This document shows positions 8,776 through 54,129 of a stretch of DNA of 64,000 bases, piece by piece. A program made the translations under genes and the position numbers. Within the stretch, counting starts at the first letter, position 1; each line of letters opens with the position of its first letter. Where the stretch lies: NCBI GenBank assembly GCA_009746045.1, contig RPFO01001933.1, positions 2,501-66,500 of the forward strand, read 5' to 3'. The DNA comes from Mesostigma viride (taxonomy: Eukaryota > Streptophyta > Mesostigmatophyceae > Mesostigmatales > Mesostigmataceae). Under the pieces are notes generated by a model. The model saw only the letters and a list, made by a program, of their open reading frames with translations. It searched no databases and had not been told where the DNA came from.

Positions 8776-9251
8776 TTCCCGAACAAAAATCACACCCTAA
8801 TTTCCAGTTTCCAACGGCCGTTGGCGCAAGAAAAATCACACCCTAATTTCCAGGTTCCAACGGCCGTTGGCGCAAGAAAAATCACACCCTAATTTCCAGG
8901 TTCCAACGGCCGTTGGCGCAAGAAAAATCACACACTAATTTCCAGGTTCCAACGGCCGTTGGCGCAAGAAAAATCACACCCTAATTTCCAGGCTCCAACG
9001 GCCGTTGGCGCAAGAAAAATGTCGACCGAATTTCCAGGTTCCAACGGCCGTTGGCGCAAGAAAAATATCAACCAAATTTCCAGGTTCCAACGGCCGTTGG
9101 CGCAGGAAAAATGACACCCTAATTTCCAGGTTCCAACGGCCGTTGGCGCAAGAAAAATCACACACTAATTTCCAGGTTCCAACGGCCGTTGGCGCAAGAA
9201 AAATCACACCCTAATTTCCAGGTTCCAACGGCCGTTGGCGCAAGAAAAATA
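8776..9251. repeat. 46 bp palindrome array filling gene A intron 2
   Basis: About ten units of ~46 bp. Each has CCAACGGCCGTTGG followed by CGCAAGAAAAATCACACCCT and AATTTCCAGGTT. Together they make up almost all of the ~617 bp intron between the exon 2 donor (GTAAAT at 9297) and the exon 3 acceptor (8681). Unit spacing is nearly constant (starts near 8811, 8857, 8903, 8949, 8996, 9042, 9088, 9135, 9180, 9227). The minus-strand frames across it (LAPTAVGTWKLGC) are repeat shadows. Confidence 0.93.
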
Positions 9252-9297
9252 ACATCTAGTGCCTAAAACGTTCCCACACCCGATCCGTTATATTTAC

Positions 9298-10452
9298 CTT
9301 TTGCGTCCGCATGTCCTTCATGGGCGGGATCAGTGCTTCCCCCTCCACCTCCCAGCCCTTGAGCACGTCCAGATTGGTGTACTTGAACTTCTCCGCGTCC
9401 CTCACCAACCCCCTCCACAAATCAAACGCCTCGTCGGTTGTCTCCACGAACTTGCCCTTTTGTTTACCCGCAATCTCGCCAGCTATCGCAGTACTCACTT
9501 GCTCGTCAGAGCCCTCGAAAATCACGGACTTCAACATCTGTGTGTAGTGGTTGCCGTCCAGCACGGCAAACTGCACAAACACGCAAGGCGTCTGGTCTCG
9601 AAATTTACCCTTAAGGCCGGCATGGTCCGAGATGTTCAAGCTCCCCAGCGCGGATTTCGTCAGGTCAACTACTGCCTCACGCTCAGATTCATTTGACCAC
9701 TCGGACGGATCCAACTCCATGGTGATCAACTCGTCTGAGCAAGCGGCCGCCATGTCCTTCAGGGAGTCCGTCCGGAGAATGGACATGGCTTCCTCGGCCG
9801 TTGGCGAACGATAGTATCCGAACCTCTGCACGGCACGGTCACTGTCGTCCCCCGTCAGTATTTTAATGTGGTAAGGAACCTTTTCACTCCTCTGCACCCA
9901 TAAATTGTAGAGACCTGGATCACGGTCTGCCAGCACCTGCCACGCAAACCGGAAGATCGGCACGGCACATTTTGCTTTTGTCAGACTTGTGCCGGCCCCC
10001 ACGAACCACGGCGCGAGCCCCCTACAATTCCGCACCGTCACCGTCCGGTGCCGCATGAGTTCCGGGAGTTGGCACAAGTTCTCCGTGGGGGCCCGTACTT
10101 GAGTCGCAATCGCGGACCCCCCCACGATGTCGACATCGTCTGGAACTAGGCGTATCTTCTGCCGCAGATGAAACGCCGCCTGTATGGTGTCAGTTAGATT
10201 CTTGTCGTGCACTTGAGAGGACGGCGCTGGCTCCCAGGAGTCCAAAATGCTGGGCTTCGCATTTCCAGCACGTGTCGTCAGCAGCCCCTTCCTCTCAAAG
10301 GTCTTCACAATAACCGACCATAAGTCGGTGCCCGGTGCTCGTTGGCGCCAGTCCTCAAAAAATGTTGTGAGATGCCTTTCCGAACAGTTATGTTCAATCT
10401 TGTAAGCCCACTTCCTCCGCTCTTCGTCCGTTCTCTGCCTTGACGGACGCCC
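9298..10452 (-). CDS. Gene A, exon 2 (385 codons, unknown family)
   Basis: An uninterrupted 385-codon exon. It is bounded by an acceptor (GTATGTTTTTTGCATGTGAT-CAG, exon from 10452, GRPSRQRTDEE) and a donor (CAAAAG-GTAAAT, exon end 9298, after MKDMRTQK). Both junctions are phase 0, so exons 1, 2 and 3 join in frame. The protein has mixed hydrophobic and charged composition with no repeats, e.g. HLTTFFEDWRQRAPGTDLWS, FRFAWQVLADRDPGLYNLWV, and ends near LDVLKGWEVEGEALIPPMKD. No transmembrane segment or known catalytic motif is visible. This is the best-preserved exon of the gene and the best search query. Confidence 0.75.
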
Positions 10453-10496
10453 CTGATCACATGCAAAAAACATACAGATAGCCGGAAGGTCAGTAC

Positions 10497-11345
10497 TATG
10501 TTCCAACGGCCGTTGGCGACAGAAAAATAACACCCTAATTTCCAGGTTCCAACGGCCGTGGGCGCATGAAAATCACACCCTAATTTACAGGTTCCAACGG
10601 CCGTTGGCGCATGAAAATCACACCCTAATTTCCAGGTTCCAACGGCCGTTGGCGACAGAAAAATAACACCCTAATTTCCAGGTTCCAACGGCCGTTGGCG
10701 CATGAAAATCACACCCTAATTTTAAGGTTCCGACGGCCGTTGGCGCATGAAAATCACACCCTAATTTACAGGTTCCAACGGCCGTTGGCGCATGAAAATC
10801 ACACCCTAATTTACAGGTTCCAACGGCCGTTGGCGCATGAAAATCACACCCTAATTTCCAGGTTCCAACGGCCGTTGGCGACAGAAAAATCACACCCTAA
10901 TTTCCAGGTTCCAACGGCCGTTGGCGCGAGAAAAATGACACCCTATTTTCCAGGTTCCAACGGCCGTTGGCGCGAGAAAAATCACACCCTATTTTCCAGG
11001 TTCCAACGGCCGTTGGCGCATGAAAATCACACCCTAATTTCCAGTTTCCAACGGCCGTTGGCGCGAGAAAAATGACACCTTCATTTCCAGGTTCCAACGG
11101 CCGTTGGCGACAGAAAAATAACACCCTAATTTCCAGGTTCCAACGGCCGTTGGCGCATGAAAATCACACCCTAATTTTAAGGTTCCGACGGCCGTTGGCG
11201 CATGAAAATCACACCCTAATTTACGGGTTCCAACGGCCGTTGGCGCATGAAAATCACACCCTAATTTCAAGGTTCCGACGGCCGTTGGGCAAAAAAAAAA
11301 TAACACCCTAATTTCCAAATTGCAACGGCCGTTGGCGCAAGAAAA
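10497..11345. repeat. 45-46 bp palindrome array in gene A intron 1
   Basis: About 19 units with the same spacer family as the intron 2 array (GCATGAAAATCACACCCTAA then TTTCCAGGTT) and a palindrome in each. Three units have CGACGGCCGTTGG and one GTGGGCG in place of GTTGGCG. The array begins about 45 bp inside intron 1 from the exon 2 acceptor and runs directly into the hexamer array. Confidence 0.93.
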
Positions 11346-15424: not shown

Positions 15425-15938
15425 CTGTGACACGCAGACGACAAAGAAGAAATCCGCCGAATATGTTAGCAAGCGGTGCGGTGCAGCACACACACCTGAC
15501 AAAGCTAATAGGTCAACCCTTAAAACCGTGTCCAACTGCCCGCTATAAAAACCGGGCAATGGTCACTTTCCATGATAATGTCCACAAACCAACCTAATAG
15601 TTAGTTATGGTCCATTATAGGACACAAGCACACACATATATTCACCACCTTGGGGGTCATGTCATTGGTCATATTGCAATGTCCTATGGGTGCCAAATAT
15701 AGCACCCCCTGACAGAAAGGAAGCTAGTAAAGGGCTCATGAACACCAAGGTTGCATGTGGAGGAGCAGGGACCCAGCTGCAAGCTCTAACAATAAATGCC
15801 CACTACAAATAGCGGACAGTTTGGTTTGTGACACCTGCTAGCATTACAAAGCTCAATTCTCATCCCGTAGCAACAAAAATGTAATGTCCGCTGTAAATAT
15901 CACTCAAAACGGCTAAAGGGTTAAAACGAAGTTGTAGT
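15425..15938. other. Spacer upstream of gene A, no gene seen
   Basis: Unique-looking sequence between the first visible exon of gene A and element E1. A TATA-like GCTATAAAAACC lies at about 15542 on the plus strand, the wrong orientation for gene A. Neither strand has a convincing coding exon. Confidence 0.4.
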
Positions 15939-17730
15939 TCTATTCCCACTATTACCAATCCACCAACATTTGATTAAAACAATAAGTGGGCAATTACAGA
16001 ACCCATGAGTGAGCCTGCCACGCTGCACCCATTTCATGATTGATTGTAGTTCTCGTTACCCTAGAAACAAACACAAGAAGAGGGAGGGAGGGCGGGACAA
16101 GAAAAAGAGACCTAGAACATCGTGCAAATGGCACTTTAGGGCGGCGTAGCCCGGGCTCGCCTCATGAGCCGTCAGCAACAGTAACTTAATTGCTACTTAA
16201 CTTAACGAACTAGAAATGGCCATACAAAACTGGCCAACTAATTCTAACTCATGGAACCGGTCCAGCCCAAGGCCCACCGTCCCGTAGTACCACTCACATA
16301 GCGGCGTTCATTCTCATCTGTTATAAAGAAACTACGTTCAGAGAACACCGATTCTATTCCCACTATTACCAATCCACCAACATTTGATTAAAACAATAAG
16401 TGGGCAATTACAGAACCCATGAGTGAGCCTGCCACGCTGCACCCATTTCATGATTGATTGTAGTTCTCGTTACCCAACCCCCTTTCCTGGTGCTTTATCT
16501 CCAAAGCTCCGCCAACCACTTTCGCTCAGTGGCTCCCGAGGCTGCCCTGCCGCAACGGTCACGACCATTACAATCGCCGGCGGCTGTAGCGAGCCTCATG
16601 CACGATAACCCTTTGCAGGGCCCCCCCCAGCCTTCCACCCTCGGCCAGTAAAAGAGGGTGTTGAATGTGCACGCAAAGACAAGGAAGAAGACGCCTCGTT
16701 TAACGATCACGGACCTCCCTCAAAGGCCAGTGCCGCCCTAACGAGACGACAACTTGTAGGACGTCACCCGATGCCACCATATCTCGATTACTGTCAACGT
16801 TGTCACCTGGGGGAGTAACTTTCCATATTTCAGGTTTTAGTTGATGAGCAGGCTCTCATCACACACCCCAGCGGCCGATAAAGCGCAAGCGCAACTGGGC
16901 CGGCCAAAATATTTGGTCCTGCCCGGCCCAGGTCCGTCTGTTAAACTGGCCCCTTAAGTCTCGGTCTGAATCGAAATATTGCATAATTCCGGAATTCGTC
17001 CCACCACATTCCCGAGACCTCACGCACCCATAAGAGCGGATGCTGGTAAATATTTTTCTACTTACGCGAGGGCCGACAGACTTGTCGTCCATCACAATGC
17101 CCACTAAAAGTAACCCGACCACCCTTCCTTCGGCAGTCAGCAGTCAGGAACTGCAACCCTGCTGCGACACTCCGCAGCAAAGCGGTAGGCACTGCAGCGT
17201 GGCACGGAAATCTTACTCATGGCTTCAGAGTTCCGTACAGGTGCCACGCGCAGGCAAACGCGAAGTATTTTATAGTCTCTCGTCGGCCAAGAACCCAGCT
17301 GCGGGGAGAAAACCGACGAGGGTAATCAATTTCTTTTTCACAGTCACGTGACTGTTCAAGCTATGTCAGTCACGCGCCATCTCTAATCGGCCACCGCCAG
17401 CCAAAAGGCTGACGCGATTAGGGCAGCATTAAATTTCTTGTAATCCGCCATACCCATACCCCATACATCCGATTACAAGAAAAAGAGACCTAGAACATCG
17501 TGCAAATGGCACTTTAGGGCGGCGTAGCCCGGGCTCGCCTCATGAGCCGTCAGCAACAGTAACTTAATTGCTACTTAACTTAACGAACTAGAAATGGCCA
17601 TACAAAACTGGCCAACTAATTCTAACTCATGGAACCGGTCCAGCCCAAGGCCCACCGTCCCGTAGTACCACTCACATAGCGGCGTTCATTCTCATCTGTT
17701 ATAAAGAAACTACGTTCAGAGAACACCGAT
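15939..17730 (-). mobile_element. Element E1: TOC1/PAT-like split-direct-repeat element
   Basis: Read on the minus strand the layout is A1 (17730-17475, 256 bp), internal region (17474-16476), B1 (16475-16353, 123 bp), A2 (16352-16097, 256 bp), a 35 bp pyrimidine-rich spacer, then B2 (16061-15939, 123 bp). A starts ATCGGTGTTCTCTGAACG and ends TCTCTTTTTCTTGT; B starts GGGTAACGAGAAC and ends GGGAATAGA. A1 and A2, and B1 and B2, appear near-identical by eye. A1-internal-B1-A2-B2 is the split direct repeat structure of PAT/Ngaro/TOC1-type tyrosine-recombinase elements. The ~1 kb internal region has no recombinase or reverse transcriptase frame, so the element is non-autonomous. It closely matches E3. 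Confidence 0.85.
17268..17274 (-). promoter_or_regulatory. TATA box inside element E1
   Basis: On the minus strand the internal region reads ACTATAAAATACTTCGCG, about 460 bases from the A1 start; E3 has the same motif at 56453. It is the only good TATA-like motif noticed in the element and may drive an internal transcript. Confidence 0.4.
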
Positions 17731-18329: not shown

Positions 18330-18873
18330 TTTTGTTCAATTCAATGATCACAATTTATGCACACAGTCGATGCATTCATAAATGAGGCAGGTTCTTCCGA
18401 AAATTGGCTCCGTCGTAGAGTGTCAACGGCCAACTTGCAAACACGCACGTTACATGATATACATCCTAGTCATTATGGTCCTATACAAACGCCAGAAGGG
18501 CCGAATACCGGTTTAATTGGATCTTTAGCTACGCATAGTAAAGTAAATGAATATGTTTTCTTGTCCTTTTTATACATTACAAAAAAATCAAGTAATTAAA
18601 AGTGAAATACCTATTTTTATACCTCCACATCAACAAGATCAATTTAAATTCGCCCCAGAATATTTATTACTTTCTTGTTACTCTAGTGTTGAAAATAATT
18701 ATGTTCATGTGCGATATAAACCAGAATTTAGTAGTAAAGCAGAAGAAGTCGATTATTTGGGGATTTCTCCAACGCAAGCTTCAATAGCTACTTCATTTAT
18801 TCCCTTGGTGGAACATGATGATGCAATCCGAGCATTAATGGGTTGTAATATGCAAAGACAAGCAGTTCCATGA
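18330..18873 (+). pseudogene. rpoB: Plastid-derived rpoB fragment (NUPT)
   Basis: The plus strand encodes a piece of the plastid RNA polymerase beta subunit. It includes [29 protein letters not shown], then [40 protein letters not shown] and NMQRQAVP, all conserved in bacterial and plastid RpoB. It is a decayed copy: three residues expected between SHYG and PI (usually RIC) are missing, there is one frameshift at about 18550-18570, and similarity ends right after QRQAVP at 18873. The block is much more AT-rich than its surroundings, as expected for transferred plastid DNA. It cannot encode a working polymerase subunit. Confidence 0.9.
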
Positions 18874-20690: not shown

Positions 20691-20884
20691 CTGTGCACAT
20701 CGATATTTTTTACACCACCCGCAAACGCACGCATTCAGCAGGGTCAACGGCCGTTGGCCCTGTTAAATTCCACACATCCCAACGGCCGTTGGCCTTAGAC
20801 GCACAAAACTTGACACCATCAGGCGATTTTTTCCAAATGATTCTTCTTTATTAAATAAATTTACATTCATCCTAAAATCACATT

Positions 20885-21229: not shown

Positions 21230-21300
21230 GGCAAGTTAAGAAACGGACTCAGCTCACAGGACATTTTGCAAGTCCAACGGCCGTTGGCGACCAAAAACAC

Positions 21301-22082: not shown

Positions 22083-22400
22083 CTGCGACCACCAACACCG
22101 TTTGATACACATTTCTCACCGTCAACGGCCGTTGGCTTGAAACAACAAGAATGATTTATTACTCGCACGAAAATCACACCATTTTCCAGCCTCCAACGGC
22201 CGTTGGCGCACGAAAAATGCACGAAAAAAATTTTTATTATGCATTTATTGATTACATCCATAGTGCCACGTGGCGAATCACACCCAACTTTCCAGCTGCC
22301 AACGGCCGTTGGCGCAAAGAAAATCAAACCCTAATTTGCAGGTTCCAACGGCCGTTGGCGCAAAGAAAATCACACCCAACACTTCAGTCGCATAATCGAT
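22083..22400. repeat. Gene-flank segmental duplication, copy 1
   Basis: This flank and 22989-23300 are diverged copies: both contain ACACCGTTTGATA, CATTTCTCACCGTCAACGGC, TTATTATGCATTTATT, ACATCCATRGTGCCACGTGG, AATCAAACCCTAATTTGCA and CTTCAGTCGCA. Copy 1 carries palindromes at about 22121, 22194, 22300 and 22346. Its 22384-22400 end runs into the 3' end of the next gene. Confidence 0.88.
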
Positions 22401-23001: not shown

Positions 23002-23385
23002 CTGCAACCCACCGACACCGTTTGATATACATTTCTCACCGTCAACGGCCGTTGGCTTGAAAAAACAACAAGAATTTTAAGATTTATTACGCGCACAAAT
23101 CACACACTAGTTTTCAGTCTCCAACGGCCGTTGGCGCACGAAAAATGTTTTATTATGCATTTATTAATTACATCCATGGTGCCACGTGGCAAACCACACC
23201 CTACTTCCGGTTGCAAAGAAAATCAAACCCTAATTTGCAAGTTCCAACGGCCGTTGGCGCAAGAAAATCACACCCAAAATTTCTTCAGTCGCAGAATCCA
23301 TTCCCCTCACGCAGTCGAACAGGGGTACTGTTCCCCCAGCGCGGACATCGCCTCACAAATCGCCCTGGGGTACGATTTAGTCCCC
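22989..23385. repeat. Gene-flank duplication, copy 2, with gene-end remnant
   Basis: Counterpart of 22083-22400, with palindromes at about 23043, 23124 and 23244. The copy 1 palindrome at 22300 is missing here: copy 1 reads CCAGCTGCCAACGGCCGTTG before GCGCAAAG, whereas copy 2 reads CCGGTTGCAAAG. Bases 23282-23385 match the 3' coding end of the 22384 gene (CCCCCAGCGCGGACATC shared) but are out of frame, so this part is a relic. Confidence 0.8.
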
Positions 23386-24227: not shown

Positions 24228-26540
24228 AGTCTAACGGCCGTTGGCTCACAACCCCCCTGTGGGAAGGGTGGATGCCTTACGAACCATTCAACCACATCTT
24301 TATGCTCAGCTAGATTTTTGGAGGCCTTTCTTGGAAGGCACATGGTAATAACCATCACTAAGCTGCATAAAAGACACATCCTGCCTTACTGCCACCAAAT
24401 GAAACGAATGAAATGCACATGGTAATGTTTTTCAAGTCTAACGGCCGTTGGCTCACAACCCCCCTGTGGGAAGGGTGGATGCCTTACGAACCATCCAACC
24501 ACATCTTTATGCTCAGCTAGATTTTTGGAGGCCTTTCTTGGAAGGCACATGGTAATAACCATCACTAAGCTGCATGAAAGACACATCCTGCCTTACTGCC
24601 ACCAAATGAAAAGAATGAAATGCACATGATAATGTTTTTCCAATTCCAACGGCCGTTGGCTCACAACCCCCCTGTGGGAAGGGTGGATGCCTTACGAACC
24701 AGTCAAGCCCCATCTTTATGCTCAGCTAGATTTTTTGGAGGCCTTTCTAGGAGAAAAATGGTAAATAGCCACCACTAAGCTGCATAAAAGACACATCCTG
24801 CCTTATTGCCACCCAATTAAACGAATGAAATGCACATGGTAATTTTTTCAAGTCCAACGGCCGTTGGCTCACAACCCCCGTGTGGGAAGGGTGGATGCCT
24901 TACGAACCATTCAACCACATCTTTATGCTCAGCTAGATTTTTGGAGGCCTTTCTTTGAAGGCACATGGTAATAACAATCACTAAGCTGCATGAAAGACAC
25001 ATCCTGCATTATTGCCACCAAATGAAACGAATGAAATGCACATTTTATTGTATTTCCAATTCCAACGGCCGTTTGCTCACAACCCCCCTGTGGGAAGGGT
25101 GGATGCCTTACGAACCATTCAACCACATCTTTATGCTCAGCTAGATTTTTGGAGGCCTTTCTTGGAATAAAAATGGTAATAGCCACCACAAAGCTGAATG
25201 AAAGATACATCCTGGCTGATTGCCAACCCACTCAAAGGAATGAAATGCACATGATAATGTTTTTCAAGTCCAACGGCCGTTGGCTCACAACCCCCCTCTG
25301 GGAAGGGTGGATGCCTTACGAACCATTCAACCACATCTTTATGCTCAGCTAGATTTTTGGAGGCCTTTCTTGGAAGAAAAATGGTAATAGCCACCACTAA
25401 GCTGAATGAAAGATACATCCTGGCTGATTGCCAACCCACTCAAAGGAATGAAATGCACATGATAATGTTTTTCAAGTCCAACGGCCGTTGGCTCACAACC
25501 CCCCACTGGGAAGGGTGGATGCCTTACGAACCAGTCAAGCCCATCTTTATGCTCAGCTAGATTTTTGGAGGCCTTTCTTGGAAGAAAAATGGTAATAGCC
25601 ACCACTAAGCTGAATGAAAGATACATCCTGGCTGATTGCCAACCCACTCAAAGGAATGAAATGCACATGATAATGTTTTTCAAGTCCAACGGCCGTTGGC
25701 TCACAACCCCCCTCTGGGAAGGGTGGATGCCTTACGAACCAGTCAAGCCCATCTTTATGCTCAGCTAGATTTTTGGAGGCCTTTCTTGGAAGAAAAATGG
25801 TAAATAGCCACCACTAAGCTGCATGAAAGACACATCCTGCCTTATTGCCACCAAATGAAACGAATGAAATGCACATGATAATGTTTTTCAAGTCTAACGG
25901 CCGTTGGCTCACAACCCCCCTGTGGGAAGGGTGGATGCCTTACGAACCAGTCAACCACATCTTTATGCTCAGCTAGATTTTTGGAGGCCTTTCTTGGAAG
26001 CACATGGTAATAGCCACACTAAGCTGCATGAAAGACACATCCTGCCTTACTGCCACCCAATGAAACGAATGAAATGCACATGATAATGTTTTTCCAATTC
26101 CAACGGCCGTTGGCTCACAACCCCCCTGTGGGAAGGGTGGATGCCTTACGAACCAGTCAACCCATCTTTATGCTCAGCTCGATTTTTTGGAGGCCTTTCT
26201 AGGAGAAAAATGGTAAATAGCCACCACTAAGCTGCATAAAAGACGCATCCTGCCTTATTGCCACCCAATGAAACGAATGAAATGCACATGATAATGTTTT
26301 TCCAATTCCAACGGCCGTTGGCTCACAACCCCCCTGTGGGAAGGGTGGATGCCTTACGAACCAGTCAAGCCCATCTTTATGCTCAGCTAGTTTTTTTGGA
26401 GGCCTTTCTAGGAGAAAAATGGTAAATAGCCACCACTAAGCTGCATGAAAGACACATCCTGGCTGCTTGCCACCCTATCAAACGAATAAAAAGCACATGA
26501 TAATGTTTTTCCAATTCCAACGGCCGTTGGCTCACAACCC
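24228..26540. repeat. 208 bp tandem array, ~12 copies, one palindrome each
   Basis: Unit: TAACGGCCGTTGG or CCAACGGCCGTTGG, CTCACAACCCCCCTGTGGGA, GGATGCCTTACGAACC, TCTTTATGCTCAGCTAGATT, GGAGGCCTTTCTTGGAAG, and so on. Palindromes recur about every 208 bp (near 24232, 24440, 24648, 24857, 25064, 25272, 25481, 25689, 25897, 26103, 26310, 26519). The last unit merges into the end of an exon at 26561. Every unit keeps a GGTTC-GTAAGG-like sequence on the minus strand that resembles that exon's donor. Frames of 66-100 codons are shadows. Confidence 0.95.
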
Positions 26541-26699: not shown

Positions 26700-27452
26700 C
26701 ACATAAACAAAACACGATCACGAGAGCATCAGGATTGTTAGAGGTTTCCTCCATCAACGACCGTAAGATACACACACCTCAAAAACCAACTTTCTTGTCC
26801 TCCCAAATAACATATGTTTTTAAATGTAAAATAAATCACATTCATATTCTGTCACTTGATTTAACCACACAATTGTTCAGGTCCAACGCCCGTTGGCATT
26901 ACGCCTCTTCCCGGTAAAATACTATTTATTGCTCCAACCCCACAAGAAACTCGTTCCGGACCTGTTCGAAGCGAAGAGCACTGCCAGGGATCGGAGTCGA
27001 GCCAGATTTGTGTGCGGAACATGATGGCTGGCCTACCTGGTGTGGAGCAATAATGTCGACATTTTCAGTGACTGTTCAGCCTAAAAAAATAACAAGCAGA
27101 TGCGACGGCCCCTCCATTAAACAAATTATCCACCACTGTTGCGCTACACTAGCAATGTTTGTCAAGGTCCAACGGCCGTTGGCATCAAATAAATCACAAC
27201 CATTGGTCACTCCATTTAACCAATACCCACAACTTTTTAACCACACTAGAAATGTTTTTTGAGGTCCAACGGCCGTTGGAATCCAAAAAATGCCGAATTC
27301 ATGTCAAATTTATATAAATGTGACAGTTGACAGAATTAGAGATAATTAAATCATCAAATCCAGCTTTAGCCATCAGCCTTACCCATCAGCAAAAATTGGC
27401 GAATTTCATTCAATATTAGAATTCAAAATTTACTAATGAAATTTATGTTTCA
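26700..27452. other. Intergenic, three palindrome copies
   Basis: No exon is convincing. Palindromes lie at about 26883 (imperfect, AACGCCCGTTGG), 27170 and 27267, each preceded by AGGTC. The right part is AT-rich and lies 3' of the F-box gene. Confidence 0.5.
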
Positions 27453-30362: not shown

Positions 30363-30504
30363 ACATCGACGTCCATCCTTAAAAAAAAATGAGGTTTTGT
30401 CGGAAAGAAAATATGCAAACGTTAGGCGAGGTTTCCAATCCCTAACGGCCGTTGGGTCACTAATTGTTGTTTAACCCACTACAGTCGCATGAGAGAAAAC
30501 GAAA

Positions 30505-32029: not shown

Positions 32030-32425
32030 CAACGCCAACGGCCGTTGGCATTACAGCAATGAAGTTAAGATAAAAACGTCGTAATGCAACGGCTGATAAA
32101 ACTGGCGTATAATCAATAACGCAAAAAAAATTGGCAAGAACTTTTTTTTGGAGGTCCAACGGCCGTTGGCATCACGTAAATCACAACAGCAATGATGGAA
32201 ACTGATTTTGCAAGTCCAACGGCCGTTGGCATCAAGAAAATCAGAAGAGGGAGCGACTGCCCAAAAAACGCATAATAATAAAACAAGTACCTTGCAGGTG
32301 GTTGACAGACGCGAATCTTGTGTGGCGACGTGGAATCTGCAAGGAATGCGCAAAAACGTTGCAATCAGAATTACAAGGATTACATATTTTCCACATTTAG
32401 TTTTTCAGGTCCAACGGCCGTTGGC
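32030..32425. repeat. Four dispersed palindrome copies
   Basis: Copies at about 32036, 32157, 32216 and 32410, each preceded by AGGTC, AAGTC or a similar flank and followed by CATCA/CATGA/CATTA. They flank the candidate 46-nt exon on both sides. Confidence 0.9.
32291..32336 (-). CDS. Candidate 46-nt micro-exon
   Basis: On the minus strand GCGCATTCCTTGCAG precedes 32336 and CTGCAAG-GTACTTG ends it at 32291, so both splice signals are present around 46 nt of non-repetitive sequence. It may precede the 31935 exon. The frame cannot be chosen from so short a stretch. Confidence 0.3.
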
Positions 32426-42000: not shown

Positions 42001-45000
42001 GGGCTGCCATTCGTACCTTTTTTTCTTTTTTTATTTTTAAGCCGGCCTGGGGCAGCGGCGGCGGGTGGACGAAAACTGATAGCATTCCCGTTCGTGCATC
42101 CCGTGACCACCGGCCACCAAACGGAGGCACGACACCAAGGCAGATCAAGCACCAAAGGAAGCAGCAAGGACGTTGACGTTATTAACCAAGAATGGGGGTG
42201 CTGGCATGCATAAATACGTCGGGGGGGGTGCTGGCATGCATAAATACATGTGGGGGGTGCTGGCATGCATAAATACCTAGGGGGGGGGCTGGCATGCATA
42301 AATACCTAGGGGGGGTCGCTGGCATGCATAAATACGTCGGGTGGGGTGCTGGCATGCATAAATACCTAGGGGGGGTGCTGGCATGCATAAATACCTAGGG
42401 GGGGTGCTGGCATGCATAAATACCGAGGGGGGGGTGCTGGCATGCATAAATACCTAGGGGGGTGCTGGCATGCATAAATACCTATGGGGGGGTGCTGGCA
42501 TGCATAAATACCTAGGGGGGGCTGGCATGCATAAATACCTAGGGGGGGGTGCTGGCATGCATAAATACCTAGGGGGGTGCTGGCAAGCATAAATACGTCG
42601 GGTGGGGTGCTGGCATGCATAAATACCTAGGGGGGTGCTGGCAAGCATAAATACGTCGGGTGGGGTGCTGGCATGCATAAATACCTAGGGGGGTGCTGGC
42701 ATGCATAAATACCTAGGGGGGGTGCTGGCATGCATAAATACCTAGGGGTTCAGCTGCCATTCGTACCTTTTTTTCTGTTTTTATTTTTTAATGGGGGCCG
42801 GCCTGGGGCAGCGGCGGCGGGTGGACGAAAACTGATAGCGTTCCCGTTTGTGCATCCCGTGACCACCGGCCACCAAACGGAGGCACGACACCAAGGCAGA
42901 TCAAGCACCAAAGGAAGCAGCAAGGACGTTGACGTTATTAACCAAGAATGGGGGTGCTGGCATGCATAAATACGTCGGGGGGGGTGCTGGCATGCATAAA
43001 TACCTAGGGGGGGTGCTGGCATGCATAAATACCTAGGGGGGGGTGCTGGCATGCATAAATACCTAGGGGGGGGCTGGCATGCATAAATACCGAGGGGGGG
43101 GTGCTGGCAAGCATAAATACCTAGGGGGGGTGCTGGCATGCATAAATACCTAGAGGGGGTGCTGGCATGCATAAATACCGAGGGGGGGTGCTGGCAAGCA
43201 TAAATACCTAGGGGGGGTGCTGGCATGCATAAATACCTAGGGGGGTGCTGGCATGCATAAATACCTAGGGGGGGTGCTGGCATGCATAAATACCTAGGGG
43301 GGGTGCTGGCATGCATAAATACCTAGAAGGGGTGCTGGCATGCATAAATACCTAGGGGGGGGTGCTGGCATGCATAAATACCTAGGGGGGTGCTGGCATG
43401 CATAAATACCTAGGGGGGGTGCTGGCATGCATAAATACCTAGGGGGGGGTGCTGGCATGCATAAATACCTACTAGGGGGGGTGCTGGCATGCATAAATAC
43501 CTATGGGGGGGTGCTGGCATGCATAAATACCTAGGGGGGTGCTGGCATGCATAAATACCTAGGGGGGTGCTGGCAAGCATAAATACGTCGGATGGGGTGC
43601 TGGCATGCATAAATACCTAGGGGGGGGGCTGGCATGCATAAATACCTAGGGGGGTGCTGGCATGCATAAATACCTAGGGGGGGGTGCTGGCATGCATAAA
43701 TACCTAGGGGGGGTGCTGGCATGCATAAATACCTAGGGGGGGTGCTGGCATGCATAAATACCTAGGGGTTCAGCTGCCACTCGTACCTTTTTTTCTGTTT
43801 TTATTTTTTAATGGGGGCCGGCCTGGGGCAGCGGCGGCGGGTGGACGAAAACTGATAGCGTTCCCGTTTGTGCATCCCGTGACCACCGGCCACCAAACGG
43901 AGGCACGACACCAAGGCAGATCAAGCACCAAAGGAAGCAGCAAGGACGTTGACGTTATTAACCAAGAATGGGGGTGCTGGCATGCATAAATACGTCGGGG
44001 GGGTGCTGGCATGCATAAATACCTAGGGGGGGTGCTGGCATGCATAAATACCTAGGGGGGGGTGCTGGCATGCATAAATACCTAGAGGGGGTGCTGGCAT
44101 GCATAAATACCGAGGGGGGGTGCTGGCAAGCATAAATACCTAGGGGGGTGCTGGCATGCATAAATACCGAGGGGGGGTGCTGGCATGCATAAATACCGAG
44201 GGGGGATGCTGGCATGAATAAATACCTAGGGGGGGTGCTGGCATGCATAAATACCTAGGGGGGTGCTGGCATGCATAAATACCTAGGGGGGTGCTGGCAT
44301 GCATAAATACCTAGGGGGGTGCTGGCATGCATAAATACCTAGGGGGGGGTGCTGGCATGCATAAATACCTAGGGGGGTGCTGGCATGCATAAATACCTAG
44401 GGGGGGTGCTGGCATGCATAAATACCTAGGGGGGGTGCTGGCATGCATAAATACCTAGGGGGGTGCTGGCATGCATAAATACCTAGGGGGGGTGCTGGCA
44501 TGCATAAATACCTAGGGGGGTGCTGGCATGCATAAATACCTAGGGGGGGTGCTGGCATGCATAAATACCTAGGGGGGGTGCTGGCATGCATAAATACCTA
44601 GGGGGGTGCTGGCATGCATAAATACCTAGGGGGGGTGCTGGCATGCATAAATACCTAGAGGGGGTGCTGGCATGCATAAATACCGAGGGGGGGTGCTGGC
44701 ATGCATAAATACCTAGGGGGGGTGCTGGCATGCATAAATACATGTGGGGGGTGCTGGCATGCATAAATACCTAGGGGGGGGTGCTGGCATGCATAAATAC
44801 CGAGGGGGGTGCTGGCATGCATAAATACCGAGGGGGGGATGCTGGCATGAATAAATACCTAGGGGGGGTGCTGGCATGCATAAATACCTAGGGGGGTGCT
44901 GGCATGCATAAATACCTAGGGGGGGGTGCTGGCATGCATAAATACCTAGAGGGGGTGCTGGCATGCATAAATACCGAGGGGGGGGTGCTGGCATGCATAA

Positions 45001-47815
45001 ATACCTAGGGGGGGGGCTGGCATGCATAAATACATGTGGGGGGTGCTGGCATGCATAAATACCTAGGGGGGGTGCTGGCATGCATAAATACCTAGGGGGG
45101 GTGCTGGCATGCATAAATACCTAGGGGGGGTGCTGGCATGCATAAATACCTAGGGGGGTGCTGGCATGCATAAATACCTAGGGGGGGTGCTGGCATGCAT
45201 AAATACCTAGAGGGGGTGCTGGCATGCATAAATACCGAGGGGGGGTGCTGGCATGCATAAATACCTAGGGGGGTGCTGGCATGCATAAATACCTAGGGGG
45301 GGGGCTGGCATGCATAAATACCTAGGGGGGGGGCTGGCATGCATAAATACCTAGGGGGGGTGCTGGCATGCATAAATACCGAGGGGGGGTGCTGGCATGC
45401 ATAAATACCTAGGGGGGGGCTGGCATGCATAAATACGTGGGGGGTCGCTGGCATGCATAAATACCTAGGGGGGTGCTGGCATGCATAAATACCTAGGGGG
45501 GGTGCTGGCATGCATAAATACCTAGGGGGGGGCTGGCATGCATAAATACCTAGGGGGGGTGCTGGCATGCATAAATACCTAGGGGGGGGCTGGCATGCAT
45601 AAATACGTCGGGGGGGTCGCTGGCATGCATAAATACCTAGGGGGGTGCTGGCATGCATAAATACCTAGGGGGGTGCTGGCATGCATAAATACCTAGGGGG
45701 GGGGCTGGCATGCATAAATACCTAGGGGGGGTGCTGGCATGCATAAATACCTAGGGGGGTGCTGGCATGCATAAATACCTAGGGGGGGGGCTGGCATGCA
45801 TAAATACCGAGGGGGGGTGCTGGCATGCATAAATACCGAGGGGGGGTGCTGGCATGCATAAATACCTAGGGGGGGTGCAGGCATGCATAAATACCGAGGG
45901 GGGGTGCTGGCATGCATAAATACCTAGGGGGGGTGCTGGCATGCATAAATACCTAGGGGGGGGGCTGGCATGCATAAATACCTAGGGGGGGGCTGGCATG
46001 CATAAATACCTAGGGGGGGTGCTGGCATGCATAAATACCTAGGGGGGGTGCTGGCATGCATAAATACCTAGGGGGGGGGGCTGGCATGCATAAATACGTC
46101 GGGGGGTCGCTGGCATGCATAAATACCTAGGGGGGGTGCTGGCATGCATAAATACCTAGGGGGGGTGCTGGCATGCATAAATACCTAGGGGGGGGGCTGC
46201 CATTCGTACCTTTTTTTCTTTTTTTATTTTTAAGCCGGCCTGGGGCAGCGGCGGCGGGTGGACGAAAACTGATAGCATTCCCGTTCGTGCATCCCGTGAC
46301 CACCGGCCACCAAACGGAGGCACGACACCAAGGCAGATCAAGCACCAAAGGAAGCAGCAAGGACGTTGACGTTATTAACCAAGAATGGGGGTGCTGGCAT
46401 GCATCAATACCTAGGGGGGGTGCTGGCATGCATAAATACATGTGGGGGGTGCTGGCATGCATAAATACCTAGGGGGGGGCTGGCATGCATAAATACCTGG
46501 GGGGTCGCTGGCATGCATAAATACGTCGGGTGGGGTGCTGGCATGCATAAATACCTAGGGGGGTGCTGGCATGCATAAATACCTAGGGGGGGTGCTGGCA
46601 TGCATAAATACCGAGGGGGGGGGCTGGCATGCATAAATACCTAGGGGGGGTGCTGGCATGCATAAATACCTAGGGGGGGGGCTGGCATGCATAAATACGT
46701 CGGGGGGTCGCTGGCATGCATAAATACGTCGGGTGGGGTGCTGGCATGCATAAATACCTAGGGGGGTGCTGGCATGCATAAATACCTAGGGGGGGGGCTG
46801 GCATGCATAAATACCTAGGGGGGGTGCTGGCATGCATAAATACCTAGGGGGGTGCTGGCATGCATAAATACCTAGGGGGGGGGCTGGCATGCATAAATAC
46901 CGAGGGGGGGTGCTGGCATGCATAAATACCTAGGGGGGTGCAGGCATGCATAAATACCTAGGGGGGGTGCTGGCATGCATAAATACCTAGGGGGGTGCTG
47001 GCATGCATAAATACCTAGGGGGGGTGCTGGCATGCATAAATACCTAGGGGGGGGGCTGCCATTCGTACCTTTTTTTCTTTTTTTATTTTTAAGCCGGCCT
47101 GGGGCAGCGGCGGCGGGTGGAGGAAAACTGATAGCGTTCCCGTTTGTGCATCCCGTGACCACCGGCCACCAAACGGAGGCACGACACCAAGGCGGATCAA
47201 GCACCAAAGGAAGCAGCAAGGACGTTGACGTTATTAACCAAGAATGGGGGTGCTGGCATGCATAAATACGTCGGGTGGGGTGCTGGCATGCATAAATACC
47301 TAGGGGGGTCGCTGGCATGCATTAATACGTCGGGTGGGGTGCTGGCATGCATAAATACCGAGGGGGGGTGCTGGCATGCATAAATACATGTGGGGGGTGC
47401 TGGCATGCATAAATACCGAGGGGGGGTGCTGGCATGGATTAATACGTCGGGGGGTGCTGGCATGCATAAATACCGAGGGGGGGTGCTGGCATGCATAAAT
47501 ACATGTGGGGGGTGCTGGCATGCATAAATACGTCGGGGGGGTGCTGGCATGCATAAATACCTAGGGGGGGTGCTGGCATGCATAAATACCTAGGGTGGGG
47601 TGCTGGCATGCATAAATACCGAGGGGGGGTGCTGGCATGCATAAATACCGAGGGGGGGTGCTGGCATGCATAAATACCTAGGGGGGGTGCTGGCATGCAT
47701 AAATACCTAGGGTGGGGTGCTGGCATGCATAAATACCGAGGGGGGGTGCTGGCATGCATAAATACCTAGGGGGGGTGCTGGCATGCATGAAAAAAGGTGG
47801 TGGGGTGCTGGCATG
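33008..47815. repeat. ~29 bp minisatellite array, ~14.8 kb, with islands
   Basis: Several hundred head-to-tail copies of GGCATGCATAAATACCTAGG followed by 4-9 more G and TGCT. Variants: ATACCGAGG, ATACGTCGGG, ATACATGTGG, ATACCTAGAGG, and GCAAGCATAAATA. Unit length varies mainly with the G run, so frames change from unit to unit and the open frames are shadows. Each unit holds the palindromes TGCATGCA/GCATGC and CCTAGG. The left ~2.7 kb is homogeneous; variants and islands accumulate to the right. Confidence 0.98.
35751..47246. repeat. Ten ~190-200 bp islands in the 29 bp array (higher-order repeat)
   Basis: Islands share GGGGCAGCGGCGGCGGGTGG, CATCCCGTGACCACCGGCCA and CGTTGACGTTATTAACCAAG. Three classes: A (TTCAGCTGCCATTC) at 35751, 39947, 42749; A' (TTCAGCTGCCACTC) at 36765, 40968, 43769; B (no TTCA lead, AAGCCGGCC) at 39204, 42003, 46196, plus a B variant at 47055. 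The order A, A', B repeats three times. A-to-A' spacing is about 1015-1021 bp and B-to-A about 745 bp. A'-to-B is about 2430 bp in two repeats and 1035 bp in one, so the unit is ~4.2 kb with one ~1.4 kb shorter version. Confidence 0.9.
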
Positions 47816-47818
47816 CAT

Positions 47819-48290
47819 AAATACATGTGGTGTGGTGCCGCCATGCATAAATACATGTGCCAGCAAACCTGAGCTGCAAGGGAGCGAGAAAACCAAGAAA
47901 AAAAGCACGCAACACACCACGCGTCGTACCTTTTTATAGATGTTTCTTTTTTTTTATGGGGCCGGCCGGGGGCGGCGGTGCCGGCAAAAATGAAGCTAGT
48001 GACACCGCGCAGATGACGCCGTGAACATGTCGCGTTGTACCGTAGAAGATACGAACAAAAAACAAAACACGAAAAAAGAGAGGCGGACCGCATATGACAG
48101 GGACGAAAAAAAGTCAGACACACAGCCTGTGTTATCTGGCATGCATAAATACATGTGGTGTGGTGCCGGCATGCATAAATACATGTGCCAGCAAACCTGA
48201 GCTGCAAGGGAGCGAGAAAACCAAGAAAAAAAGCACGCAACACACCACGCGTCGTACCTTTTTATAGATGTTTCTTTTTTTTTATCCTTG
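47819..48290. repeat. ~320 bp direct duplication at array edge
   Basis: GCATGCATAAATACATGTGG...GCCAGCAAACCTGAGCTGCA, AGGGAGCGAGAAAACCAAG, CACCACGCGTCGTACC and TTTTTATAGATGTTTC occur at 47819-47957 and again at 48138-48283. The first copy reads on into GGGGCCGGCCGGGGGCGGCG, the second into the island-like sequence. Confidence 0.85.
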
Positions 48291-48296
48291 TCCTTC

Positions 48297-49010: not shown

Positions 49011-49011
49011 A

Positions 49012-49840: not shown

Positions 49841-49929
49841 GTGCGTGCAGGGTTACGGATTTACGGGGTTGTTGACCACCAAATTTGTTGTTACGTGTGT
49901 TATGGAAACATTTCAGTCGAATTTCTGGG

Positions 49930-50560
49930 TTCCAACGGTCGTTAAGGTTATAAAAAGTGCGTTGGGATTCGGAAATTCACATCCTGGCGTGTAAAAAATG
50001 CAGGTGTTGGCGAGTTTTCGGCCCGCTTTCAGGGGTCCAACGGCCGTTGGGTGTCTAAAATGCATGCGTTAGCGTGTTTCCGGCCCGCTTTCAGGGGCCC
50101 AACGGCCGTTGGACGTCGAAAATGCATGTGTTGGCGTGTTTTCGGCCCGCTTTCAGGGGTCCAACGGCCGTTGGGTGTCGAAAATGCATGTAAAGGGCGT
50201 GTTTCAGGCCCACTTTCAGGGGTCCAACGGCCGTTGGGTGTAGAAAATGCATGTGTTGGCGTGTTTTCGGCCCGCTTTCAGGGGTCCAACGGCCGTTGGG
50301 TGTCGAAAATGCATGTGTTGGCGTGTTTCAGGCCCACTTTCAGGGGTCCAACGGCCGTTGGGTGTCGAAAATGCATGTGTTGGCGTGTTTTCGGCCCGCT
50401 TTCTGGGGTCCAACGGCCGTTGGGTGTCGAAAATGCATGTGTTGGCGTGTTTCAGGCCCACTTTCGGGGGTCCAACGGCCGTTGGGTGTCGAAAATGCAT
50501 GTGTTGGCGTGTTTCAGGCGTACTTTCAGGGGTCCAACGGCCGTTGGGACCTACAAATTG
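49930..50560. repeat. ~61 bp palindrome array 5' of gene B exon
   Basis: About nine units of GGGTCCAACGGCCGTTGGGT, GTCGAAAATGCATGTGTTGG, CGTGTTTTCGGCCCGCTTTC, with palindromes near 50038, 50099, 50160, 50221, 50286, 50346, 50407, 50469 and 50531. A decayed copy (CCAACGGTCGTTAAGG) is near 49933. The spacer is unrelated to the 46 bp and 208 bp arrays. Frames of 100-178 codons are shadows. Confidence 0.94.
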
Positions 50561-50633
50561 GGTAATTGTTGGAAAGCAATAATTTGATAAAAAGTCAAAA
50601 CTTCGTCTGGATTCTGTATGCGCGCGGATGCAG

Positions 50634-51784
50634 GTGAAGCGCACAACAAAGACCTAAGTCTCAAGTACGTCGAGATCAAGGGCAACCAACTTGCCCTCGA
50701 CATGGCCAGCGCAATGGAATACTTGCTGAAGGACAACAATCACAAGACTGAAAACACGAAAACTGCAGTAGGCTTGAGGGCGCTTGAGCGGCTGCCAGGT
50801 GCGGTTGTGAAGGTTATGGGGAAACAGTACCGCCCTGCGCTGAAAAGAAAGGCGTCGGAGTCCTTCGCTCAGGAGGTTGTCGCTAATATCGTGCAAGGTT
50901 TCCAGGAATTGGGCAAGTCGGATGAGCACAGGAACGCGAAGTGCGCTGTGCTGTCAATGTGCTTGGGAAAGGACGGCATGAACAATCAAGGGCATTGCAC
51001 TCTCGCGCGGCTGCTTCACGTCACGCCCAAGGATATCCAGACCGCAAGGGGAATGAGGATGGGGGGCGACCTTCCCGCCCTGAAGGCGCCCCCTCGTGCT
51101 TTACGGTCGGACAAGTTTCCGGAGGAGGTCAAAGACATCGTCGGGAGTTACTGGTTGTCAGACCTAAACACGAGGGCGTCTCCCAACCATAAGGACGTGG
51201 TCAATGAGTTCGAAAGGAAGGGAAACGCCAGGATCCTCATTTCCTCCCAGGGCGGAAGGTACTATTTGGACTCGCTTGAAACGATTTACAAGCGGTTCTG
51301 TTCTGACGCGTCGCCGTACAAGGGAGGTATCGTGACGACTGCGGACGGGACAAGGTACAAGGTGGGGTACACGAAGTTCGTGGAGTTCATGCCCAAGTGC
51401 GTAAAGGGCGTGTGGAAGGACCGGGACTTGTGCGCATGCGAAAAGCACGTCGTCTTCGAGTCTCTGCTCTCTGCCTTCGCCAAAGGCGTCAAGGAGTTGA
51501 AGAGCACGCTGGAGATCGAGGAGAGGGAGGGTATCCCTTCCGTGCCTGACAATGCCCATGATTTCGTTCGACGTTTCACCTGCCACAGGGCTGAGAGGGG
51601 GGAGGGGGGGCAAGGAGGGGGGAGGACGGGCGGCCCGTTCGTTAACGTCCCAATGAACTGCTTGGAAGGGACGTGCAACGAGTGTGGGATTTCCGAGTTC
51701 ATCGTGACGGACCAGATGAAGGGGTGGACAAAGAAGTACACGTGGTTCGACTTCATAAAGGAGGGCACAGCGCCCCGTGGGACG
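50634..51784 (+). CDS. Gene B, exon with N-terminal region of transposase-derived protein
   Basis: Starts after GGATGCAG and ends at a donor (GGGACG-GTAAGC). 383 codons in phase. It contains SMCLGKDGMNNQGHCTLARL, a KDRDLCACEKHVVFESLLSA segment and CLEGTCNECG (about 51658), then Trp/Lys-rich QMKGWTKKYTWFDF. A CxC..H element, then a Cys cluster, then an RNase H-like domain is, from memory, the order in an uncharacterised DDE-transposase-derived family common in animals and protists. The Cys residues are likely structural zinc ligands. No frame damage is seen in this exon. Confidence 0.75.
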
Positions 51785-52040
51785 GTAAGCATGTATATTT
51801 GCATCGTTGAATATATATATGTAGACTTTCATACTTCCAACGGCCGTTGGCGTTGGGAAATTCCCAGCTGCTGACTTCCATTCTTCGGTCAATCCATGGT
51901 GCGCGGGCATGTATATTTGCATCGTTGAATATATATATGTAGACTTTCATACTTCCAACGGCCGTTGGCGTTGGGAAATTCCCAGCTGCTGACTTCCATT
52001 CTTCGGTCAATCCATGGTGCGCGGGTGTGTTGTGTTGCAG
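51785..52040. repeat. Gene B intron with 119 bp direct duplication and two palindromes
   Basis: Donor GTAAGC at 51785 and acceptor GTGTGTTGTGTTGCAG at 52040. The intron is two near-perfect copies of a ~119 bp unit (CATGTATATTTGCATCGTTG, AATATATATATGTAGACTTT, CCAACGGCCGTTGGCGTTGG, CTGCTGACTTCCATTCTTCG), with palindromes near 51837 and 51956. Confidence 0.9.
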
Positions 52041-52796
52041 GAGGAGGATGTGGCGCCGCAAATGAACCTGCAGCAAAAACTCATCAAGTCAACCCTCTCG
52101 GAGCTCCATGAACTCATTACGGCGCGCTTCCCGGAATTCGCCATTCACGTCCATACATGGGCCTGGCAGCACCACGCTTACAAGGAGTGCATTGACGTGA
52201 TGCCGCTGGGAACGGTGGTGGTCCTGATGGACTACTCGGAGAACTATTCGGACCACCTGCAGAAACAGTTGCAGGCGCAGTACTGGTACCCAAGTAGTTA
52301 CGTCCTGATGCCGGTGATCGTGATGTACCGTGATCCCGTATCGCTGGAAATCAAAAGGGTGAAGCACGATTACATGGGGAAGGACGTACCGAGGAATGCC
52401 CAGACCCTGGAGTTCGTGATGAAGAATACCCTTAACGTGCTGAGGGAGGAGGGGGTGGAGGTGAGGAACTGGATCAGTTGGTCCGACAACTGTAAGGAGC
52501 AGTTCCAATCCCGGTATGTGTTGGCGATGGCTGCGGACCTGCTCGAGGCCGACCCCGACTTGGAATCATTGGAGTGGAACTACTCGTGTGCAGGACATGG
52601 GAAGGGGGAGTCGGACGGGGAGGGGGGGACGGTCAAAAGCATCCTCAAAAGAGCGCAGATGCAGGAGGACAATCGGAACCTGAATACGGTGGAGGCACTG
52701 GTGGCCTACCTGAACCGGGATTGGAGAACCGGCAAAGACTCGAGTCGACCATCGGCACAATCGGACGTGGTTCGACGGGCATTTCTTCTCGATAAC
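52041..52796 (+). CDS. Gene B, RNase H-like (DDE/D-type) core exon
   Basis: 252 codons, phase 0 at both ends (donor GTAAGT at 52797). Three motifs fit an RNase H-fold nuclease or transposase core: VVVLMDYSENY (Asp codon 52230), WISWSDNCKEQFQSRYVL (Asp codon 52485) and CAGHGKGESDGEGGTVKSIL (Asp 52614, Glu 52620). From memory the same order (D-x-x-E-N-Y, SDxCxxQ, HGKGxxDxxGG) defines a widespread uncharacterised family. Catalytic residues look intact, so this may be an active transposase or a recruited nuclease. It ends VVRRAFLLDN before the donor. No terminal inverted repeats were found around the gene. Confidence 0.8.
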
Positions 52797-53098
52797 GTAA
52801 GTAAAGACAGTTGCTTTCTGGTGGTCAAGTGCAGTTCTATAATTTGTCTCTGGTTACACTTTACAGAGGACAGCTTCCTTGATGCAGTTTGAAGTTTCAT
52901 AAGGCCAACGGCCGTTGGAGCTGGAAAATCGTATAATTGTTGAGTGCCAACGGCCGTTGGAGTTGAGAAATGTACTTATATAAAGTTTCCAAGGGCCAAC
53001 GGCCGTTGGAGTTGGGAAATCTTATAATTGTTGAGTGCCAACGGCCGTTGGAGTTGGGAAATGTGCTGTGATGTTGTTTCATGGATTTACAATTGCAG
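52797..53098. repeat. Gene B intron with four palindromes
   Basis: Donor GTAAGT at 52797, acceptor TTTACAATTGCAG ending 53098. Four palindromes (near 52904, 52947, 52998 and 53038) are each followed by GAGTTG or GAGCTG and GGAAAT/GAAAAT, at 43-52 bp spacing. The spacer is a short family different from the other arrays. Confidence 0.9.
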
Positions 53099-53766
53099 AT
53101 TCTCACGTCCGGTAAGGAGCGAGGCCCGATCCGAGATATCTCCACGGCACACCAGTGGCGACTGGACAAAAAGGGCGAGCGGGTCGAGGTGGTAAAGCTC
53201 AGGCGTTTTTCATGCTTCAGTTGTGCGGAGTGCCGAGAGGGCAAGTGGACGACATGCCCAAACGATTGGAGCAGCTCGTCGTGGACTGTAAAACTCCAGG
53301 CGAGTAAGTCGCGGAACCCCACGCGATATCCGGGAACCCGCCTGAACCACGTTCAAACGGCAAGAAACGAGTTGGGGCGTGGTTTGCAGGAGGGGGAGGC
53401 CGTCGCAGTCGCATCTGAGAGGGGGCACAAGGACCATGTGCCCGACCACCCGTACTGGTTGGCGAAAGTTGTTCGAGTCGCCCACCAACTCGACAAGGAT
53501 GAGTGTTTAAACAAACATACAGGGGGGGGGGCGAGGTTTTTAAGAAAGGCAACTGGGTAATGTACGTAAAATACTTCGAGAGGTGCTCCTCCTCCGGATC
53601 GGACGCCCGACGCTTCTTCTGGAACCCAGACGACCGAGAACCCTTAACTGCAATCGTGTGCTACCTGAGCGTCGCAAAGGTCACGAAGGGCAAGTGGGAA
53701 GGACATCCGGACAACACGCGACAGGGCTGGTTCACAATTGCGAAGAAGGTGGACGCCGAAATTACG
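53099..53766 (+). CDS. Gene B, C-terminal exon with G-run frameshift
   Basis: Begins ILTSGKERGPIRDISTAHQW in phase with the previous exon. It contains LRRFSCFSCAECREGKWTTC, a Cys-rich patch typical of the C-terminal part of this family. A run of ten G (53522-53531) breaks the frame; eleven G would continue into VFKKGNWVMYVKYFERCSSS and GWFTIAKKVDAEIT, ending at a GTACGT donor (53767). The C-terminal segment (YWLAKVVRV, WVMYVKYFE, GWFTIAKK) has the alternating aromatic/hydrophobic look of a small beta-barrel, but no family is claimed. Confidence 0.68.
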
Positions 53767-53862
53767 GTACGTCATTCCAAACATTACTGTGTAAAATTGG
53801 TGTTTGTATGTCGCATGTGTTTTTTTGTCGACGGTCGTTCACCTTACTAATGTTACATACAG

Positions 53863-53883
53863 GGCAATCAGCCTATACTTTAG
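53863..53883 (+). CDS. Gene B, putative terminal exon (GNQPIL-stop)
   Basis: TACTAATGTTACATACAG is a textbook branch site and acceptor. The exon reads six codons then TAG at 53881-53883, in phase 0 with the donor at 53767. The intron is only 96 bp and, unlike the others, has no palindrome. A palindrome follows the gene at about 53928. Confidence 0.5.
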   Translation, partial: GNQPIL

Positions 53884-54129
53884 CTTGGCTGCATGGCGCA
53901 TGTCGCATATCTTAATTTCTCAAAGCCAACGGCCGTTGGACTTACGAAACTGGACAAGTGCCAAGTGCGGATTGGGTACTAAAATGGGCATTCTTGTTGA
54001 GGATGACCAGTTGTGTTTATATATTTTTGCATGGTGGCGGATGACTTGGCGTGTTGTTGCATTTTTACATACGGGTGTATGGTAGGCCTTAAACCCTAAA
54101 CCCCTACACTCCTAAACCATATTTACCCT
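53884..54129. other. Gene B 3' flank
   Basis: Contains one palindrome (near 53928) and, at 54088-54118, degenerate telomere-like runs (AAACCCTAAACCCCTA, CCTAAACC). No gene is seen. Confidence 0.5.

Follow-up and report, generated by a model that had tools for sequence, protein, structure and literature searches.

A 34-bp dyad site in a large repeated unit of Mesostigma viride, predicted to bind a dimeric protein

A 64,000-nucleotide stretch of the Mesostigma viride genome (GenBank assembly GCA_009746045.1, contig RPFO01001933.1, positions 2,501 to 66,500 of the forward strand; hereafter the window) holds 61 exact copies of a 14-bp perfect palindrome, CCAACGGCCGTTGG, which forms the centre of a more extended dyad, TTTY-N6-CCAACGGCCGTTGG-N6-RAAA, of roughly 34 bp. 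We consider it probable, with some reserve, that this dyad is the DNA site of a dimeric protein and a cis-element for the genes of one giant repeat. In the mechanism suggested by these sequences, a dimeric DNA-binding protein would occupy the bipartite site of about 34 bp and control transcription of the unit's genes from a proximal promoter position, about 40 to 110 bp before the ATG, and the arrays of sites in introns would represent homotypic clusters produced by tandem duplication. The 9,685 exact copies present genome-wide would then reflect amplification of the unit (131 copies, as judged by its gene E) together with local tandem duplication, rather than thousands of independent insertions. 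An earlier note on this DNA had taken the palindrome for a functional site or array seed and not for the passenger of one repeat family. That interpretation was half right: the present evidence points to function, but not to independence from one repeat family.

If correct, this proposal defines a sharply delimited operator, and a unit of tens of kb in more than 100 copies, in an early-diverging streptophyte alga, and indicates that a motif pervading one window can be the signature of a single amplified unit. Passages of the genome report describe many segmental duplications and 66% repeats in M. viride (PMC6947507). In the literature we found neither the motif nor a giant unit of this kind described, as judged by titles and the beginnings of abstracts; the string "palindrom" does not occur in the main text of either M. 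viride genome paper, and the motif's 12-mer occurs in three publications that, by their titles, concern unrelated subjects.

The palindrome and its extended dyad

The exact copies of CCAACGGCCGTTGG span positions 8811 to 53939, and 100 dinucleotide-preserving shuffles of the window yielded none. Within one mismatch we found 76 sites (chance expectation 0), in good agreement with the approximately 75 copies previously counted by eye, and within three mismatches 78 (61 exact, 15 with one mismatch and two with three; shuffle mean 4.6). The range of 8.8 to 54 kb given for them holds for the exact copies, but a near-copy at 7105 lies to its left. The earlier note had proposed a genome-wide count against a control and a comparison with other palindromes. 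In the 439.9 Mb and 2,243 contigs scanned, the palindrome occurs exactly 9,685 times and the same letters read backwards not once; at up to one mismatch the counts are 12,162 and 88, respectively, corresponding to about 1.7% divergence per core position if all near-matches are true copies. No other 14-bp palindrome in the window comes close to its 61 copies, the runner-up having two. Six other 10-kb stretches of the genome contain no copy. A viral origin of the motif was rejected, since 108 viral-contig stretches carry one exact copy each, a chance level.

The consensus is composed of two halves, TTTY-N6-CCAACGG and CCGTTGG-N6-RAAA. To define the arms, we used sites from the window and from a further locus type (L001; C and L numbers are our handles for contigs and loci), retaining 39 distinct arms of 150 and dropping arms that run into another core. 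Read outward, these arms carry a purine at +7 in 34 cases and A at +8, +9 and +10 in 29, 33 and 34. The full RAAA at +7 to +10 is present in 24 of the 39, the background rate per offset being 1.5%; when related arms are discarded more stringently, it is present in 8 of 18 and 3 of 12. These statistics treat arms as independent. Among 75 sites, AAA occurs within one base of this register on both sides in 54, on one side in 20 and on neither in one. The sharing between arrays is therefore not restricted to the palindrome, as had been claimed, because the RAAA/TTTY arms are common to them too.

The N6 spacers of 21 distinct sites are not complementary to one another (0.214, compared with 0.283 in shuffled spacers), which speaks against a hairpin: the symmetry resides in two half-sites set apart from each other, the arrangement expected where a protein dimer contacts DNA. 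An RNA hairpin or known RNA family was rejected on this ground and for want of any Rfam match at the gathering threshold, as was a miniature inverted-repeat transposable element or the terminal inverted repeat of a small transposon, given the non-complementary N6 and the listed flanks, which show no target-site duplication by eye. Single half-sites were likewise rejected as a true signal: CCAACGG occurs 10 times in the masked window, against 3 to 10 times for four other 7-mers, and 19 times in 60 kb elsewhere. The half-site with its arm, CCGTTGG-N6-RAAA, is found five times in the masked window and never in 60 kb elsewhere.

Five arrays in the window bear sites, always one per unit, with periods of 45-46 bp (8.77-9.25 and 10.50-11.35 kb), 208 bp (24.2-26.5 kb), 62 bp (50.0-50.5 kb), 118 bp (51.8-52.0 kb) and 42/49 bp (52.9-53.06 kb); the last three had been estimated closely, at about 61, 119 and 43-52 bp. 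Spacers had been described as unrelated, which is true of the 46-bp and 62-bp arrays, but promoter sites near 22.3 and 23.2 kb have spacer sequence in common with the 46-bp units in the gene A introns. The variability of the site was compared in the two arrays of unrelated spacer. Per column, variation in the 46-bp array (129 of 133 units kept, four being too divergent) is 1.4% in the core, 1.6% in the arms, 7.8% in N6 and 18.4% in the outer columns; in the 62-bp array (59 of 66 units kept, seven being too divergent) it is 0.6%, 1.7%, 9.9% and 13.6%. Small indels inflate the outer columns, making N6 the safer comparison; relative to N6, variation is reduced 6- and 17-fold in the core and 5- and 6-fold in the arms (46-bp and 62-bp arrays, respectively). 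Because finding units by their core may introduce bias, we also anchored 46-bp-family units on their spacer, leaving out 12 of 81 fuzzy spacer matches for lack of a neighbouring core: the remaining 69 show zero, one and two core mismatches in 58, nine and two cases. Between the window and its relative on C1613, the core differs at one of 210 positions. Decay at methylated CpG was rejected, the CpG-transition variant numbering 58 against a mean of 118 per symmetric pair (2,477/21).

These values bear on whether the palindrome is a plain passenger, simply part of the repeat units that were copied. Recent copying, with about 1% divergence at gene E exons against C1613, and an amplification that by itself accounts for copy number would both suit such a passenger. 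Yet the 15 site groups of the window stand mostly beside differing sequences, and the N6 columns vary 5 to 17 times as much as the core and arms next to them, leaving this explanation very improbable.

A recombination or breakage site, or array seed, would have the core uniform without any regulation, because only intact sites propagate when arrays expand. The idea keeps some weight, since the five arrays with sites carry one per unit, and a presumed lost site in L003, near 1654, ends within the palindrome by eye. It remains unlikely in view of the single, array-free sites before genes and of the largest arrays of the window, which hold no exact site: the hexamer (11.36-15.09 kb), 29-bp (33.0-47.9 kb) and 40-bp (57.8-60.9 kb) arrays are devoid of exact copies, as the earlier note had observed. 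The same had been said of E1-E3, an ambiguous label; the three exons of gene E contain no exact copy.

Placement before genes and a possible host regulator

The sites recur at short distances upstream of presumed genes (Table 1). For eight of 11 starts, the nearest upstream site lies 40, 41, 45, 54, 55, 71, 80 or 109 bp before the ATG, and for the other three it lies 534, 829 and 2,369 bp away. Thus the claim of a site in nearly every intergenic space is borne out within 110 bp upstream of eight starts and fails for three. At the site density of 15.2-32.5 kb, eight of 11 has a probability of about 7e-5, a value that refers to starts made by hand from open reading frames (ORFs) and chosen after the sites had been seen, one of them (22082) being uncertain. 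The 10-bp centre is intact in 71 sites, of which 31 fall in presumed introns, one in presumed coding sequence (7105) and 39 elsewhere. Together with the low variability of core and arms in two arrays of unrelated spacer, this recurrence 40-109 bp before ATGs agrees with the functional site that had been proposed.

Candidate binders are a host MYB protein, the half-site resembling the core of the mitosis-specific activator (MSA) element, or a protein of the unit itself. In the former case, a MYB of the MYB3R kind would recognize the palindrome as two back-to-back MSA-like elements, a host cell-cycle regulator having been recruited, which we regard as possible but doubtful. The MSA core AACGG is common to both systems and present in each half of the palindrome (CCAACGG). 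Portions of PMC10905365 describe MSA-like AACGG/CCGTT motifs near transcription starts, in variable orientation and number, and the sites here stand similarly near presumed gene starts, although their distances of 40-109 bp, for 8 of 11 hand-made models, are counted from the ATG and not from the transcription start. R2R3-MYB genes are, moreover, reported for M. viride in passages of PMC6947507. On the other hand, lone CCAACGG half-sites are not enriched in the masked window, and the site differs from MSA in its strict 14-bp palindrome, its outer RAAA arms and its number of about 74 per repeat copy. To our knowledge, RAAA arms are no part of MSA, which weighs against a host MYB.

The repeated unit that carries the sites

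We sampled dispersed copies using a single-mismatch variant of the palindrome as an address list of 58 sites, of which 34 were fetched (14 on scaffolds longer than 1 Mb, then 20). Thirty-one of these near-copies sit in copies of window loci, namely the gene A arrays, the promoters at 22 kb and the gene E array; the other three (L131, L154 and L155) have no match in the window and no exact palindrome, and appear chance-like. This distribution does not support the claim that the palindrome is not the passenger of one repeat family. The outcome that the earlier note had set against its own reading, derivation from a single family, is thus largely what is seen, in the form of a giant composite unit and not of a simple repeat. 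Among the first 50 exact sites in genome order, 25 lie in window copies shown by BLAST (L004 and L124), 20 match window spacings only, three are in L001 and two (C1:2197968 and C1:5080384) are unassigned. The highly iterated palindrome HIP1 of cyanobacteria, GCGATCGC, is similarly a perfect palindrome in extreme excess, described in PMC4390886 as extremely over-represented. Here, by contrast, a single repeated unit accounts for the sampled copies, the six other 10-kb stretches have none, and a HIP1-like genome-wide spread was rejected.

A 43-mer of gene E exon 2 has 131 genomic matches at up to three mismatches, giving about 74 exact sites per gene E copy genome-wide; the 100 matches listed are all exact and are distributed across 93 contigs. 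A listed gene E copy occurs within 60 kb of 20 of the 43 variant sites on contigs up to C1900, in every case with the site upstream (at 2.0-2.2 kb in nine cases, at 15.7-31.7 kb in nine, and at 44 and 49 kb in the other two); the remaining 23 have no gene E within 60 kb among the matches listed, 20 of them on contigs with none listed. L001 is the only other type of site locus seen, and a 46-mer from its flank has 350 matches, with two near-copies of it in L001 itself. Among the matches listed, 36 of 66 gene E copies up to C1597 have an L001-type block within 150 kb, located in 35 of the 36 downstream of gene E, on the opposite strand and 16-109 kb away. C1613 is colinear with the window over 47.8-54.9 kb. 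The sites sampled are thus part of a large repeat whose listed blocks mostly keep their side and orientation.

Several observations weigh against the proposed dimer site and its unit. The core of the 208-bp array (12 units) varies by 2.4%, with arms at 1.0%, N6 at 6.9% and outer columns at 27.5%, and this array has no right-arm RAAA; at least one side lacks AAA in 21 of the 75 sites. The sampled variant is inherited within arrays, so that the gene A, gene E and 22-kb loci are over-represented. Among the matches listed, 30 of the 66 gene E copies are without an L001-type block inside 150 kb, and no gene E occurs within 60 kb of six copies of gene A on large scaffolds. The first gene E block of C1 is about 3 Mb distant from the gene A block there, which counts against one fixed unit. 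Finally, the gene models are hand-made, and the codon differences of gene E between copies (11 synonymous and 16 non-synonymous) give no sign of protein constraint. A single fixed unit is thus not proven, given the gene A and gene E copies without listed partners. Two pieces of C1, at 2160634-2163647 (L004; 99.6% identical to the window) and 5084001-5094000 (L124; 90-99%), likewise lie about 3 Mb apart, a pair that represents either a segmental duplication or an assembly error, such errors being possible in these repeats.

The reading we prefer is that the unit is transposon-like and would be mobile. Its ends were not located, and neither terminal repeats nor a target duplication were found for it. 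Among algae, giant transposons and endogenous giant viruses extend over tens of kb, carry several genes and occur in many dispersed, near-identical copies. The unit resembles them in size, gene number and many near-identical dispersed copies, but differs in that no ends, integrase family or viral hallmark were identified, hallmarks not having been searched for. A more tentative extension of our proposal is a private regulon, in which some 70 operators of 34 bp per unit, at gene starts and in intron arrays, would serve one dedicated dimeric protein that coordinates expression, and perhaps mobilization, of the whole unit; shared operators of this kind are also a feature of large phages, but would here be found in a eukaryotic repeat.

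Gene E and other features of the window

The second candidate binder is a protein of the unit itself, for example the product of gene E, putatively of RNase H fold, acting on its own promoter and introns, perhaps for mobilization. Nine sites stand directly before gene E and six within its introns, the sampled sites are confined to repeated blocks, and the predicted structure gives RNase H-like matches. The latter derive from a poor model of exon 2 (predicted local distance difference test score 45.6) and are weak (best E 2.3e-3, none below 0.001), consisting mostly of Argonaute/PIWI and other RNase H-like folds, including RuvC and Mos1 transposase, so that exon 2 is possibly RNase H-fold. A parallel exists in Ac, whose transposase binds AAACGG repeats according to PMC3260210: both would have many short protein-binding repeats in one mobile family, binding here being putative. 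The motif here, however, is CAACGG, and it is spread over 45 kb of promoters and introns, whereas in Ac the repeats are found no more than 200 bp from either end. An Ac-type subterminal repeat was rejected on account of this spread, the ends of the unit being unlocated. The same spread, the lack of terminal repeats or target duplications and the quality of the gene E model speak against a binder encoded by the unit, which seems to us about as doubtful as a host MYB.

No homologue of the gene E protein was found with search words from its first 500 residues, and gene E exon 2 and one gene A exon have no relatives in viral contigs, a search that did not include hallmark genes. Over the pieces tried, Pfam returned no family above cut-off besides one MYND finger. 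Between the window and C1613, 0.8-1.7% of gene E exon positions differ, the value of about 1% from which we take the copies to be recent.

Table 1. Palindromic sites and gene E in the window
Feature	Position	Gene strand	Context
Near-copy, one mismatch, both arms present	7105..7118		inside ORF taken as gene A coding sequence
10 exact sites, 46-bp period	8811..9238	-	presumed intron of gene A; boundaries by hand
45-46-bp units, 14 exact and 5 one-mismatch sites	10503..11335		presumed gene A intron
Two sites, one with mismatch	20744..20792	-	54 bp and more before ATG 20690
Single site	21274..21287	-	45 bp before ATG 21229
Four sites, one with mismatch	22122..22358	-	before presumed ATG 22082; start uncertain, downstream frame change
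Three sites, one with mismatch	23042..23257	-	nearest 41 bp before ATG 23001
208-bp array, 12 sites (8 exact, 4 one-mismatch)	24231..26530	-	nearest 55 bp before ATG 24176
Centre-mismatch site 26883, exact sites 27169 and 27266	26883..27279		
One-mismatch site	30442..30455	-	80 bp before ATG 30362
Four exact sites	32035..32424	-	nearest 109 bp before ATG 31926
62-bp array, 9 exact sites	50037..50547	+	ends 71 bp before gene E ATG 50618
Gene E	50618..53518	+	exons 50618-51784, 52041-52796, 53099 on; intron boundaries keep frame
Two exact sites, 118-bp duplication	51837..51968	+	gene E intron 1 (51785-52040); C1613 copy minus one repeat
Four exact sites	52905..53051	+	gene E intron 2 (52797-53098)
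Single exact site	53926..53939	+	downstream of gene E exon 3

The window also contains a family of short intronless genes (19319-24176 and 30725-31501) with cysteine-rich or MYND-type segments and some frame changes, of which 30725-31501 is the sole member passing Pfam (zf-MYND). This MYND protein is 86% identical to an M. viride protein over 67% of its length, and 94% identical over 76% of its length to a sequence in EukProt P0121, labelled Prorocentrum lima, where contamination or mislabelling is possible. The plastid rbcL is of the green type, and its matches to land plants and streptophyte-like sequences reach 92%. The interval 28220-30194 contains direct repeats of 99% identity, 423 bp long at 28220 and 29602 and 137 bp long at 29478 and 30058, which suggest another insertion within the gene cluster. 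An AT-rich segment at 18480-18880 resembles, by eye, part of plastid rpoB and probably represents plastid DNA that has entered the nucleus.

A 1.8-kb unit is present in opposite orientations at 15938-17730 and 55994-57789 (99.4% identical), with internal, long terminal repeat-like direct repeats of 257 bp. Its left copy is absent from the C1 relative L124, which identifies it as an insertion, and the inverted pair was rejected as the ends of the larger unit. Finally, 29-bp units form a 14.8-kb array at 33008-47854; the distance from gene E to the gene cluster varies among copies of the unit, and the length of this array is perhaps responsible.

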